Positions 9,458-12,423 of a stretch of DNA of 12,423 nt are shown in pieces; position 1 is the first letter of the stretch; each line of letters opens with the position of its first letter. The position numbers and the translations under genes are program-made. This stretch comes from Flavobacterium psychrophilum (GTDB lineage Bacteria; Bacteroidota; Bacteroidia; Flavobacteriales; Flavobacteriaceae): positions 1 to 12,423 of the forward strand of contig CAMBHH010000101.1 in assembly GCA_945866505.1 (NCBI GenBank), read 5' to 3'. The notes beneath the pieces are model-generated. The model saw nothing but the letters and a program-made list of their open reading frames with translations. It had not been told where the DNA came from and made no database searches.

Positions 9458-9486
9458 AATAGTGCACTATTGAAATAATATTATTT
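9458..9486. promoter_or_regulatory. two adjacent perfect palindromes upstream of operator
   Basis: AATAGTGCACTATT (9458-9471) is a perfect 14-bp palindrome. One base later AAATAATATTATTT (9473-9486) is a second perfect 14-bp palindrome, although it is pure A/T and easier to get by chance. They cover the region where the -33 promoter element of the 9513 gene should lie and directly abut the ACTTTG operator. The first one, with its GTGCAC centre, is a reasonable candidate for an additional protein-binding site. Confidence 0.45.
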
Positions 9487-9492
9487 ACTTTG
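9485..9492 (+). promoter_or_regulatory. probable -7 promoter element of the membrane protein-regulator operon
   Basis: TTACTTTG differs from TAnnTTTG only at the second position. Its last six bases ACTTTG are the left half-site of the operator at 9487-9503, so a bound regulator would block RNA polymerase. It lies 20 bp before the ATG at 9513. Confidence 0.45.
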
Positions 9493-9511
9493 CAATTCAA
9501 AGTACTTTAAA
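9487..9511. promoter_or_regulatory. operator copy 1: ACTTTG-N5-CAAAGT plus ACTTTAAA
   Basis: ACTTTGCAATTCAAAGT (9487-9503) is an inverted repeat of 6-bp arms around CAATT. It is followed directly by ACTTTAAA, so AAAGTACTTT (9499-9508) is a second, overlapping 10-bp palindrome, giving three half-sites in a row. The same arrangement recurs at 10988-11012. It ends 1 bp before the start codon of the membrane protein gene and overlaps the predicted -7 element. The most likely ligand is the winged-helix regulator encoded at 10671-10967. Confidence 0.75.
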
Positions 9512-9512
9512 G

Positions 9513-10136
9513 ATGGAAAACGAAAAATACCTTAACGACATTTCTGAAATAAAAAATTTAATGAATAGATCGTCTCGATTCATTTCTTTGAGCGGACTTT
9601 CGGGGATTTTGGCAGGACTATATTGCCTCATTGGAGCTGGACTTGCTTATAAAATAATTTATTTTGATGCGGTAACATTAAATAATTATAGCGATTTGAT
9701 TATAACGCAAACAATGCTATTACAACTTTTTTCAACTGCGGCCAGCGTAATAGTGTTATCGCTTGTAACAGCTATCGTGTTAAGTAGCAGAAAAGCTAAA
9801 AAAAGTAATGATAACGTTTGGAATTCAGCTTCTAAACGATTGGTAATTAATTTTCTGATTCCATTATTGACCGGTGGTATTTTTATTTTATTTTTAATTG
9901 AAAAAGAAATATTGGGATTAGTAGCTCCATTAACACTTCTTTTTTACGGTTTGGCCTGTGTAAATGCTAGCAAATATACCCTTGGTGATATTCGATATTT
10001 AGGAATTACAATGATACTTTTGGGATTGCTTTCCACCTGGTTTTTAGGTTATGGATTGCTATTTTGGGCATTGGGTTTCGGTATTTGTCATATTCTTTAC
10101 GGCTCGATTATGTATTACAAGTACGATAGAAAATAA
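9513..10136 (+). CDS. six-helix integral membrane protein, first gene of regulator operon
   Basis: The 207-residue protein has a short charged cytoplasmic N-terminus (M-E-N-E-K-Y-L-N-D-I-S-E-I) and about six membrane helices near 23-47, 68-92, 109-129, 132-150, 158-177 and 180-200. A S-R-F-I-S-L-S-G-L-S-G segment leads into the first helix. I recognise this as a Bacteroidota protein type often found beside a small winged-helix regulator, but I know no established function and see no catalytic or transport motif. The next gene begins 6 bp after its stop. The predicted promoter and operator directly before the ATG suggest that its expression is controlled by the regulator two genes downstream. 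Confidence 0.82.
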   Translation: MENEKYLNDISEIKNLMNRSSRFISLSGLSGILAGLYCLIGAGLAYKIIYFDAVTLNNYSDLIITQTMLLQLFSTAASVIVLSLVTAIVLSSRKAKKSNDNVWNSASKRLVINFLIPLLTGGIFILFLIEKEILGLVAPLTLLFYGLACVNASKYTLGDIRYLGITMILLGLLSTWFLGYGLLFWALGFGICHILYGSIMYYKYDRK

Positions 10137-10142
10137 AAGTAA

Positions 10143-10667
10143 ATGATTTTTTATATTTATTTCTGGTGGTTTTTTGGAATATTAATTTTTATGATTTTTG
10201 GAATATTTTCAAAAAATAAGATAATTAAAAAAATTGCTACTGTTTCTTGGATTATGCTATTTTCGCTAATTGCATTTTTTTGTGTTTTGAAATTATTCAC
10301 TACTAAAATGAAACTAAGTGAACATGAAATTTATGGGGAATATGTTATAGATAAAAAGAAATGTGCTGGTAAACAAGCTAATTGGCAGTACAATAATTAC
10401 CGATTTGAAATAAAAAAAAATAACAAAATATATTTCTATATCACTAAAAAAGAAAGAATTGTAAAAACGATTATAAAAAATTTAAAACTTAATAATGGAC
10501 ATAGTAGCCCTTTTTTGGATATAGATTTAAGGGACAGTGATTTTCATATTTTAAAAGAAAATCCAACTTTATATCGAGAAATTTGGACTTTTTATTATGT
10601 ATTTCATTCAGAAAAATTCGGAAATATGTTCTTTACAAAAGGAAAGTGGAAATCACTAGAATATTAA
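10143..10667 (+). CDS. hypothetical membrane-anchored protein, AT-rich
   Basis: The 174-residue protein has two hydrophobic helices (about 2-23 and 30-51) and a soluble domain of about 120 residues, rich in aromatic, lysine and asparagine residues. The soluble part contains G-E-Y-V-I-D-K-K-K-C (65-74), W-Q-Y-N-N-Y-R-F-E-I (81-90), N-P-T-L-Y-R-E-I-W (140-148) and ends F-G-N-M-F-F-T-K-G-K-W-K. This pattern looks like a small beta-rich Bacteroidota domain with no assigned function that I can name. The DNA is visibly more AT-rich than its neighbours, with long A and T runs. It sits 6 bp after one gene and 3 bp before the regulator, so it is embedded in the operon and is probably a later insertion. 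Confidence 0.72.
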   Translation: MIFYIYFWWFFGILIFMIFGIFSKNKIIKKIATVSWIMLFSLIAFFCVLKLFTTKMKLSEHEIYGEYVIDKKKCAGKQANWQYNNYRFEIKKNNKIYFYITKKERIVKTIIKNLKLNNGHSSPFLDIDLRDSDFHILKENPTLYREIWTFYYVFHSEKFGNMFFTKGKWKSLEY

Positions 10668-10670
10668 TTT

Positions 10671-10967
10671 ATGAAAAACATCATCCAAAATATCAATAAA
10701 GCGTTCGATCATCGGATACGACTAGGAATTATGTCGGTTTTGATGGTCAATGAATCTGCCGATTTCAGCACGCTGAAGGAACTTTTGGGCGTAACCGATG
10801 GAAATCTAGCGAGCCACACCAAAGCATTGGAACTCGAAAATTATATCGCAATTGAAAAACAATTCATAGGCAAAAAACCAAACACCAGTTACAGAGCCAC
10901 AAAGGAAGGAAGAAGTGCCTTTCAAAATCATATTGCAGCCCTTGAAAAGTTAATACAAAAAAGATAA
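10671..10967 (+). CDS. winged-helix transcriptional regulator (HTH_34/MarR-like)
   Basis: The 98-residue protein is almost entirely one winged-helix DNA-binding domain. F-D-H-R-I-R-L-G-I-M-S-V-L (12-24) forms the first helix. D-F-S-T-L-K-E-L-L-G-V-T-D-G-N-L-A-S-H (31-49) is the helix-turn-helix, with the recognition helix from G44. I-G-K-K-P-N-T-S-Y-R-A-T-K-E-G-R (66-81) is the wing. The C-terminal helix (83-98) can serve dimerisation. There is no ligand domain. It starts 3 bp after the preceding stop and is probably autoregulated. The two identical operator-like elements bracketing its operon and creD are the natural targets. The mode, repressor or activator, is inferred as repressor because the sites overlap the -7 elements. 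Confidence 0.93.
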   Translation: MKNIIQNINKAFDHRIRLGIMSVLMVNESADFSTLKELLGVTDGNLASHTKALELENYIAIEKQFIGKKPNTSYRATKEGRSAFQNHIAALEKLIQKR

Positions 10968-10985
10968 GACTATTTTTTTATATTT

Positions 10986-10993
10986 TAACTTTG
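10986..10993 (+). promoter_or_regulatory. -7 promoter element for creD
   Basis: TAACTTTG fully matches TAnnTTTG, and its last six bases are the left half-site of operator copy 2. It implies a leader of roughly 85 nt before the creD ATG at 11085. No -33 TTG is visible at the expected distance, which would fall at the end of the regulator gene. Confidence 0.55.
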
Positions 10994-11012
10994 AATTGCA
11001 AAGTACTTTAAA
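10988..11012. promoter_or_regulatory. operator copy 2: ACTTTG-N5-CAAAGT plus ACTTTAAA
   Basis: ACTTTGAATTGCAAAGT (10988-11004) is the exact reverse complement of the 17-bp core of operator copy 1, and it is followed by the same ACTTTAAA in the same direction. The half-sites and third half-site are identical in the two copies; only the 5-bp spacer differs in orientation (AATTG against CAATT). It lies 21 bp after the regulator gene and overlaps the creD -7 element. Confidence 0.78.
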
Positions 11013-11084: not shown

Positions 11085-12423
11085 ATGGAAACACCCGAAA
11101 AACAACCCGCAACAAGTTTCTTTCAATCCAACACTGCCAAAATGCTTATGGTAGGTTTACTAACACTCATTCTACTGATTCCACTCGAATTTGTAAAAAA
11201 TTTAATCGCCGAAAGGTCGCAACGGCAAGAAGAAGTCGTCACTGAAATCAATGATAAATGGGGAGAAAATGTCTTCCTTTATGGTCCAATATTAAAAATT
11301 CCCTACACCGTTTATGAAGAAACCGTTTCAATCAACGAAAAAACAAAAGAAACAGTAAAGCAAAGAACGGCCTACACCAACTTTGCCTACTTTTTCCCGG
11401 AAGAACTCAAAGCCAAGACGAATGTAACCACCAAAGTTTTGAACAGAAACAATTATGAATCGGTGGTTTTCAGTTCAAAAATGAAATTTGAAGGCAATTA
11501 TATTCATCCCGATTTTAGTAGCAAAGAAATTGCAACCGAAAACATTCAATGGAATAAAGCCACCATTCTACTCAAAACGACCAATTTAAAAAGCATCAAA
11601 GATGAGGTGAAAATTAATTTTGGAAACACCAATTTCACCTTTGAACCTGTTTACGATTCAACCTCAAAAGACAGCACAGAAGCTTTGGAGACAGGCTACA
11701 TTGATTTAAGCAAAATCCTAACCGAAGGAAAAACTGCCTTCCGTTTCGACATCACCTATAACGGAAGCCAACAAATAAAAATGGTTCCAATCGGAAAAAC
11801 TAATGAAGTAAAAATGGAATCCAATTGGGCTTCGCCAAGTTTTACTGGCAATTTCCTTCCAGACGACAAAACAAAACAAATCTCGGCTACTGGATTTGTG
11901 GCCAATTGGAAAATTTTGCACATCAACAGAGCTTTTTCGCAACAAACATTCGGCAATTTACCTGATTTGAGTCAATATGCTTTTGGCGTTGATTTTGTAA
12001 TTCCGGTAAACCAATACCAGCAAAACGAACGTGCCTCGAAATACGGCTTTCTAGTGATTGGCTTGACGTTTTTGATTTTCTTTTTGATTCAATCCATAAG
12101 CAAAATCAAGATTCATATTTTTCAATATTCGATGATTGGGCTGTCGCTAATTATGTTCTACACCTTGCTGATATCGATTACCGAGCACAGTAGTTTTATG
12201 AAAGCATACATCATTGCAGGAATTGCTGTTATTGCGCTAATAACGTTGTACTCGGCTGCGATTTTAAAAAACCTGAAATTCCCGCTTTTTATTGCCGCTT
12301 CACTAAGCTCATTATACACTTTTCTGTTTGTCATAATCCAATTAGAAAACTACGCTTTACTGGTGGGAAGTATCGGCCTGTTTGCCATTCTTGCTGCCGT
12401 AATGTATTTTTCCAGAACCATTG
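11085..12423 (+). CDS. creD: CreD inner membrane protein (3' end outside window)
   Basis: The open frame runs 446 codons to the window edge with no stop. Known CreD proteins are about 450 residues, so only a short tail is missing. Residues 1-19 are cytoplasmic, followed by a membrane helix (20-39) and a large beta-rich extracytoplasmic domain (about 42-318) containing W-G-E-N-V-F-L-Y-G-P-I-L-K-I-P (59-73). A C-terminal bundle of several helices begins near 320 and includes L-V-G-S-I-G-L-F-A-I-L-A-A-V-M-Y-F (426-442), a typical CreD ending. In E. coli, CreD belongs to the CreBC regulon and affects envelope integrity; its biochemical activity is unknown. No CreB/CreC genes are seen here. The upstream operator and winged-helix gene suggest a different regulator. 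Confidence 0.93.
   Translation, partial: METPEKQPATSFFQSNTAKMLMVGLLTLILLIPLEFVKNLIAERSQRQEEVVTEINDKWGENVFLYGPILKIPYTVYEETVSINEKTKETVKQRTAYTNFAYFFPEELKAKTNVTTKVLNRNNYESVVFSSKMKFEGNYIHPDFSSKEIATENIQWNKATILLKTTNLKSIKDEVKINFGNTNFTFEPVYDSTSKDSTEALETGYIDLSKILTEGKTAFRFDITYNGSQQIKMVPIGKTNEVKMESNWASPSFTGNFLPDDKTKQISATGFVANWKILHINRAFSQQTFGNLPDLSQYAFGVDFVIPVNQYQQNERASKYGFLVIGLTFLIFFLIQSISKIKIHIFQYSMIGLSLIMFYTLLISITEHSSFMKAYIIAGIAVIALITLYSAAILKNLKFPLFIAASLSSLYTFLFVIIQLENYALLVGSIGLFAILAAVMYFSRTI

Follow-up and report, generated by a model that had tools for sequence, protein, structure and literature searches.

LmrR is autoregulated and exerts local control over membrane genes. The regulator described here resembles such LmrR-type PadR proteins in being a winged helix of about 100 aa without a separate sensor domain, and its predicted structure matches theirs in fold. 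The likeness extends to an inverted-repeat site on the regulator's own promoter and to a small number of local targets, both of which are features of LmrR. However, the regulator here belongs to HTH_34 by sequence and has a near-constant membrane-protein neighbor, and its targets are mostly uncharacterized membrane proteins, with no drug pump among those scanned. The archaeal winged-helix protein PH1061 (1ub9) is the nearest solved relative by sequence (E 2.2e-7) and ranks first by fold; it differs in its archaeal origin, and neither an operator nor a function is known to us for this protein. DUF1700-PadR systems pair a small membrane protein with a winged-helix gene, and they are like this locus in placing a membrane gene beside a small winged-helix gene in one operon; the families differ on both sides. 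In Proteobacteria, the inner-membrane protein CreD is controlled by CreBC / BlrAB, with CreBC being a two-component system that uses a direct-repeat cre tag (TTCACnnnnnnTTCAC). Control of CreD is also what we propose here, but by one winged-helix protein acting at an inverted repeat. In the window (the whole stretch of 12,423 nucleotides that was analyzed), the cre tag had no exact match, and 11 matches with up to 2 mismatches were present compared to 14.6 expected, none of them between 8602 and 12288. One report on Stenotrophomonas describes a weakened envelope upon loss of CreD (PMC4689548). Among the matches listed, the open-licence papers titled CreBC or CreD were all on Stenotrophomonas, and the matches listed from the open-licence literature contained no description of an HTH_34 operator/regulon system and nothing on the control of CreD or DUF membrane families in this phylum. 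The mechanism appears to be that of a classic autoregulated repressor, and, relative to the open-licence papers listed, the operator appears to be new, as do its repressor and the regulon of membrane genes.

The regulator sequence assigns the window to Flavobacterium or a close relative: among 489 confirmed relatives, the best 80 have products 82-96% identical to it. Of these 80 records, 71 are titled Flavobacterium, and all 80 are close kin of the window. Every window feature given below is on the forward strand. The operon begins with a gene that we named memA in this analysis (9513..10136), encoding a 207-aa membrane protein with six predicted helices, continues with an optional ORF of 174 aa (10143..10667), and ends with the gene for the 98-aa HTH_34 winged-helix regulator (10671..10967). 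It is followed by creD (11085..12422), a predicted target that runs past the window end and was identified by both PF06123 (473.5 bits versus a cut-off of 23) and the equivalog model NF008712 (462.1 versus 275). Operator 1 (ACTTTG-CAATT-CAAAGT-ACTTT, 9487..9508) consists of a 17-bp inverted repeat (9487-9503) and a third half-site (9504-9508), and operator 2 (ACTTTG-AATTG-CAAAGT-ACTTT, 10988..11009) lies before creD. The regulator is thereby encoded between two copies of one operator, an arrangement put forward in the sequence-only reading and supported by both the locus layout and its conservation. The 174-aa ORF matched no Pfam or NCBIfam family and had homologues in 3 of the 80 relatives (L009, L039, and L064), being placed after the regulator in L064. 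The same position in relatives, between memA and the regulator, is often taken by a Peptidase_C92 (YaeF/YiiX-type) gene (L008:3326-3997, a cluster of 20), as assigned by a Pfam run on L008 alone.

The regulator matched HTH_34 (PF13601) with 107.8 bits against a cut-off of 27, over profile positions 1-80 of 80; this was its sole Pfam match at E 0.001, and no PadR profile was matched. Four of five AlphaFold models had a pLDDT of 88-91 (the best being 91), and one was poor at 43. The monomer model is predicted to contain helices at residues 2-26, 32-39, and 43-55, strands at 59-66 and 69-76, and a final helix at 78-97, and the stretch TDGNLASH in the recognition region was invariant in 15 diverse members. 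A Foldseek search with the model placed 1ub9 nearest, followed by small PadR proteins, with Rv3488, 5h20 (Bacteroides fragilis), and LmrR as single-domain PadR neighbors. MemA had no Pfam or NCBIfam match, and its AlphaFold model of six predicted helices reached a modest pLDDT of 72. Of the 134 loci that carry the regulator, 132 have memA adjoining it, the others being L178, with none, and L046, which ends with the contig, and in several loci the end of memA overlaps the start of the regulator. L178, in which the regulator is flanked by two one-mismatch sites and no memA was found adjoining, provides a natural case on the need for memA.

We consider it highly probable that the HTH_34 protein represses its own operon and a regulon of membrane genes, often including creD, through the conserved operator. 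From the position and conservation of the operator and its tight co-occurrence with one regulator, we infer that the 98-aa protein acts as a dimeric, autoregulated, and local repressor, which would bind directly to ACTTTG-N5-CAAAGT-ACTTT at about -10 to +12 of target promoters and block RNA polymerase at the memA-orf174-regulator operon and at creD. MemA may supply or tune the signal, which could be membrane or envelope state. We propose, tentatively, that MemA and the HTH_34 protein constitute a two-gene membrane-state sensor/repressor that is widespread in the class. In such a pair, a perturbed membrane would lead memA to release the repressor, and on the three half-sites two dimers could bind next to each other. 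The compact regulon kept repressed would comprise mostly uncharacterized membrane proteins (CreD, DUF1361, DUF4153, DUF2809, and small membrane families), together with a few enzymes of the MPAB-type, Coq4-like, and radical SAM kinds. The term "one-component" in the sequence-only reading may mislead, given that the membrane protein beside the regulator in nearly all loci is a possible partner. Alternatively, the regulator might conceivably, if not probably, sense a small ligand in the dimer pore as LmrR does, with memA being a further target and not the sensor. The closeness of the predicted fold to 1ub9, Rv3488, 5h20, and LmrR would agree with ligand sensing, as would local autoregulated control of membrane genes, which is the pattern generally known for LmrR; however, no transporter family was found among the target proteins scanned, and memA is constant beside the regulator (132/134 loci) while the other targets vary.

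The position of the operators relative to the promoters bears on the direction of regulation. In F. psychrophilum, the primary -7 box is TAnnTTTG, located at -12 to -5, and TAnnTTGY represents a second class (PMC9723704); an identical -7 box is described for F. johnsoniae (PMC6847099). At operator 2, the box TAACTTTG (10986-10993) is a perfect TAnnTTTG, and in the -7 region of the operon promoter (9485..9493), TTACTTTG fits TAnnTTTG at 7/8 positions and TACTTTGC fits TAnnTTGY. The earlier claim that each copy lies on a -7 element is borne out by the sequence together with the published box rule. By the -12 to -5 rule, each operator spans about -10 to +12, with predicted starts at ~9497-9498 and ~10998, and operator 1 overlaps the predicted core promoter of the regulator's own operon. 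A protein bound to a site that straddles the -7 box and the start would block polymerase, suggesting repression as the outcome. Among the 102 loci with both sites, the base after ACTTTG was a pyrimidine at site 1 in 96 and an A at site 2 in 93, and TACTTTG plus a pyrimidine was found at operator 1 (9486-9493 in the window) in 75 of 76 Flavobacterium-type loci. Given that the pyrimidine fits TAnnTTGY, as defined in PMC9723704, and that operator 2 mostly carries an A, each of the two promoters may depend on its own sigma factor. A -33 TTG was present in 90 of the same 102 loci at site 1 and in 3 at site 2, and it was not evident at site 1 of the window. A tract of six or more Ts within 22 bp upstream was found at site 2 in 98 of 102 and at site 1 in 7 of 102. 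The window matches its relatives at site 2 in having the T tract (T7, 10973..10979, kept in relatives) and no -33 TTG. Tracts of at least six Ts were also seen upstream of some trans sites, and the tract seems to be tied to target promoters rather than to where the regulator gene ends. It is unlikely that the regulator instead acts as an activator, or in a dual role, by recruiting polymerase to promoters with a weak -33 element or positioning it there. The scarcity of a -33 TTG at site 2 and the sub-optimal TTACTTTG kept at operator 1 would suit activation, but activators seldom bind over the -7 box and start point, which this site overlaps, and most site-1 promoters have their -33 TTG.

Absence of the motif from orthologous loci had been named beforehand as the finding that would count against the sequence-only reading, and the motif was present there. 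In the window and 80 relatives, sites were taken by position as the best 22-mer near gene borders, with no pattern search (L046 is cut off at site 1). At site 2, just downstream of the HTH_34 gene, 16-17 of the 17 specified bases were found in 81/81 loci, and the same was true of site 1, before the operon, in 74/80. Four of the six site-1 misses (L014, L018, L020, and L059) contain an additional small membrane gene, and in these the core precedes that gene, about 350 bp farther upstream; the called memA start is off in L036, and no site was found before memA in L067. All specified positions carried 1.7-2.0 bits, and the flanks were mostly well below 1.7 bits, except for the site-2 T tract and the Ts adjoining site 1. 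An automatic two-site search covered 135 loci, 134 with the regulator (L181 being motif-only) and 132 with the memA-regulator pair. Site 1 reached at least 14/17 in 117 of these pairs, site 2 in 112, and both in 102; the 30 pairs with one or both sites below 14/17 included mis-set starts and an inserted first gene, and others were without a second site nearby. Positions 17-18 were off consensus at either site in 20 of the 102 loci, with the same change at both sites in 8 (TG/TG in 4, CA/CA in 3, and TT/TT in 1) compared to 0.74 expected from shuffling; the remaining 12 of these 20 informative loci do not change alike. The concerted change favors one reader protein for both sites, and shared descent contributes.

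The motif and the regulator were found in largely the same genomes. Eighteen Flavobacterium genomes, chosen for holding the locus, contained 41 matches to the 22-bp pattern, 2 or 3 per genome. Across the family of G001 (F. fluvii; 299 genomes), the motif occurred in 140 genomes and the regulator in 144: 139 had both, 1 had the motif only, 5 had the regulator only, and 154 had neither. Across the class (GTDB Bacteroidia; 395 genomes), the motif occurred in 92 and the regulator in 128 at E <= 1e-30, a line set after seeing the gap between 3.4e-31 and 5.1e-22; both were present in 89, the motif only in 3, the regulator only in 39, and neither in 264. The Fisher p values of 3e-78 (family) and 6e-53 (class) are descriptive, given that the genomes share ancestry and the values therefore overstate independence. 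Motif-bearing genomes held 1-4 exact sites, usually two. Weak HTH_34 matches do not track the motif, which was found in 2 of 47 genomes with a weak match only. The 5 regulator-only genomes of the family have slightly degenerate sites with 1-2 mismatches. Among the 39 in the class, each of the 20 examined has a degenerate site at one position or at both, with at least 14/17 at site 1 in 17 and at site 2 in 16; random windows equaled the found site-1 score in 3 to 30 of 200, counts inflated by same-locus windows that may overlap real sites. L271 and L277 have the exact 12-base core at site 1 with the third half-site absent, and L286 has site 2 only. Two of the 4 motif-only genomes (G182 of the family and G683 of the class) have the motif inside a called ORF, as chance matches would be. 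In the class genome G666, the site precedes a small membrane family found elsewhere under the site, and one site in G676, also of the class, precedes a protein with a weak DUF4153 match. Since memA accompanies the regulator in 132/134 loci, co-occurrence cannot separate the two. Small regulator ORFs were easily lost by longest-ORF picking, which in L186 gave antisense ORFs at the regulator position from the genome search (G220). That the motif is the operator of another transcription factor in the same genomes we regard as very unlikely: co-occurrence alone cannot name the protein, but the site is beside the regulator gene in nearly all loci examined, the two are jointly present or absent, and the two sites vary partly in concert.

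A scan of the window for ACTTTG-N5-CAAAGT with up to 2 mismatches returned two sites, 9487-9503 (N5 of CAATT) and 10988-11004 (AATTG), both exact and at the coordinates first reported, and no third copy at this threshold. The full 25-mer with ACTTTAAA was exact at 9487-9511 and 10988-11012 and, with as many as 3 mismatches allowed, did not occur in any of 200 shuffles. The bare 12-base core is not rare, with 1.28 copies expected per window when up to 2 mismatches are allowed and at least two copies in 69 of 200 shuffles, and the 17 specified bases of ACTTTGN5CAAAGTACTTT have about 0.0016 expected chance matches per 3.5 Mb. The reality of the motif is settled by conservation and not by the rarity of the core, and the conserved unit is the 17-bp inverted repeat with its abutting third half-site. 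The reverse-complement relation of the two cores, to which the sequence-only reading had drawn attention, is exact in the window but coincidental, given that only 8 of the 102 two-site loci show it; we attribute it to chance in N5 and reject it as a feature. The reversed pattern had no match in the genomes tabulated (the 18 Flavobacterium, family, and class sets). Two other readings of the repeat, as chance combined with the -7 box or as an RNA hairpin, we reject as having a negligible likelihood: ACTTTG does include the TTTG of the -7 box and the core at 2 mismatches is common, but invariance is equally high in the box and in the bases downstream of it (1.7-2.0 bits), the reversed pattern is unmatched in the genomes tabulated, and a predicted start inside the repeat means that the repeat would not be transcribed whole.

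The place of creD among the targets was more limited than first proposed. In the class, CreD was found in 42 of the 128 regulator genomes, and in 35 of these 42 it lies at most 6 kb downstream on the same strand; 86 of 128 were without a CreD match, and 59 of 101 CreD genomes were without the regulator. The association of the two was weak (odds ratio 1.7, p 0.027, 395 class genomes). Where creD is unlinked from the regulator, the site was kept in 2 of 7 cases (G662 with 17/17 and G374 with 15/17) and was absent within ~470 bp upstream in the other 5, and the creD upstream regions of 14 regulator-less genomes lacked it, with 9-12 of 17 only, although in both groups such scans would miss an operon promoter farther upstream. 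By these counts, creD is probably a frequent, but not obligate, target, and a creD-specific regulator is rejected as too narrow. The proposed creD switch is only partly supported, given the weak association and the presence of the motif before other families. The description as an alternative to CreBC is likewise only partly supported.

The idea of one regulon under one shared operator holds and extends through the class, with binding and repression as the likely means. The regulon would be small, would consist mostly of membrane proteins, and is predicted to be found through much of the class. An operator of 22 bp that can be read from sequence, together with a candidate repressor, makes uncharacterized membrane proteins a defined co-regulated set, whose signal and function become directly testable in Flavobacterium, and gives a handle for annotation across the class. 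In many Flavobacterium loci, Coq4-like, DUF1361, and small membrane family genes lie between site 2 and creD, and in some loci site 2 is followed by DUF2809 with an MPAB/Lcp-type gene, an exosortase-like gene with its VIT-domain partner, or a radical SAM gene. We examined 33 loci, chosen among the matches listed, whose site lies apart from the regulator. In 22 of them, the neighbor gene belongs to a family also present in a regulator locus, in a sample where moved genes that lost the site would not show. A regulon predicts just this pattern, in which a family has the operator in cis in one genome and in trans in a second. First-ORF assignments are wrong or doubtful for some of these loci (L114, L196, and L254). 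The trans sites precede MPAB-type genes (L111, L112, and L114, and L196, where the gene is across the site), a membrane family of ~95-190 aa (L115, L190, L193, L194, L195, L248, L253, L258, and L261) that is the first gene of the memA operon in L014, L020, and L059, Coq4-like genes (L197, L250, and L260), an exosortase-like pair (L191), a radical SAM gene (L251), a 110-aa membrane family (L113, L256, and L264) that follows creD in L058, and creD itself (L252). DUF4153 is under the site in L257 and L259 and follows site 2 in L236. The others precede a 414-aa family (L247, L255, and L263), a DoxX-like gene (L192), or nothing clear (L249, L254, L262, and L266), and the site of L265 is inside an ORF. 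Four half-sites in a nearly symmetric arrangement, AAAGTACTTTG-N5-CAAAGTACTTT or similar, make up some of the trans sites (L190, L251, L254, L263, and L266). In L112, L114, and L196, the operator separates the MPAB-type gene from a divergent gene for a small protein, and one operator may serve two promoters there.
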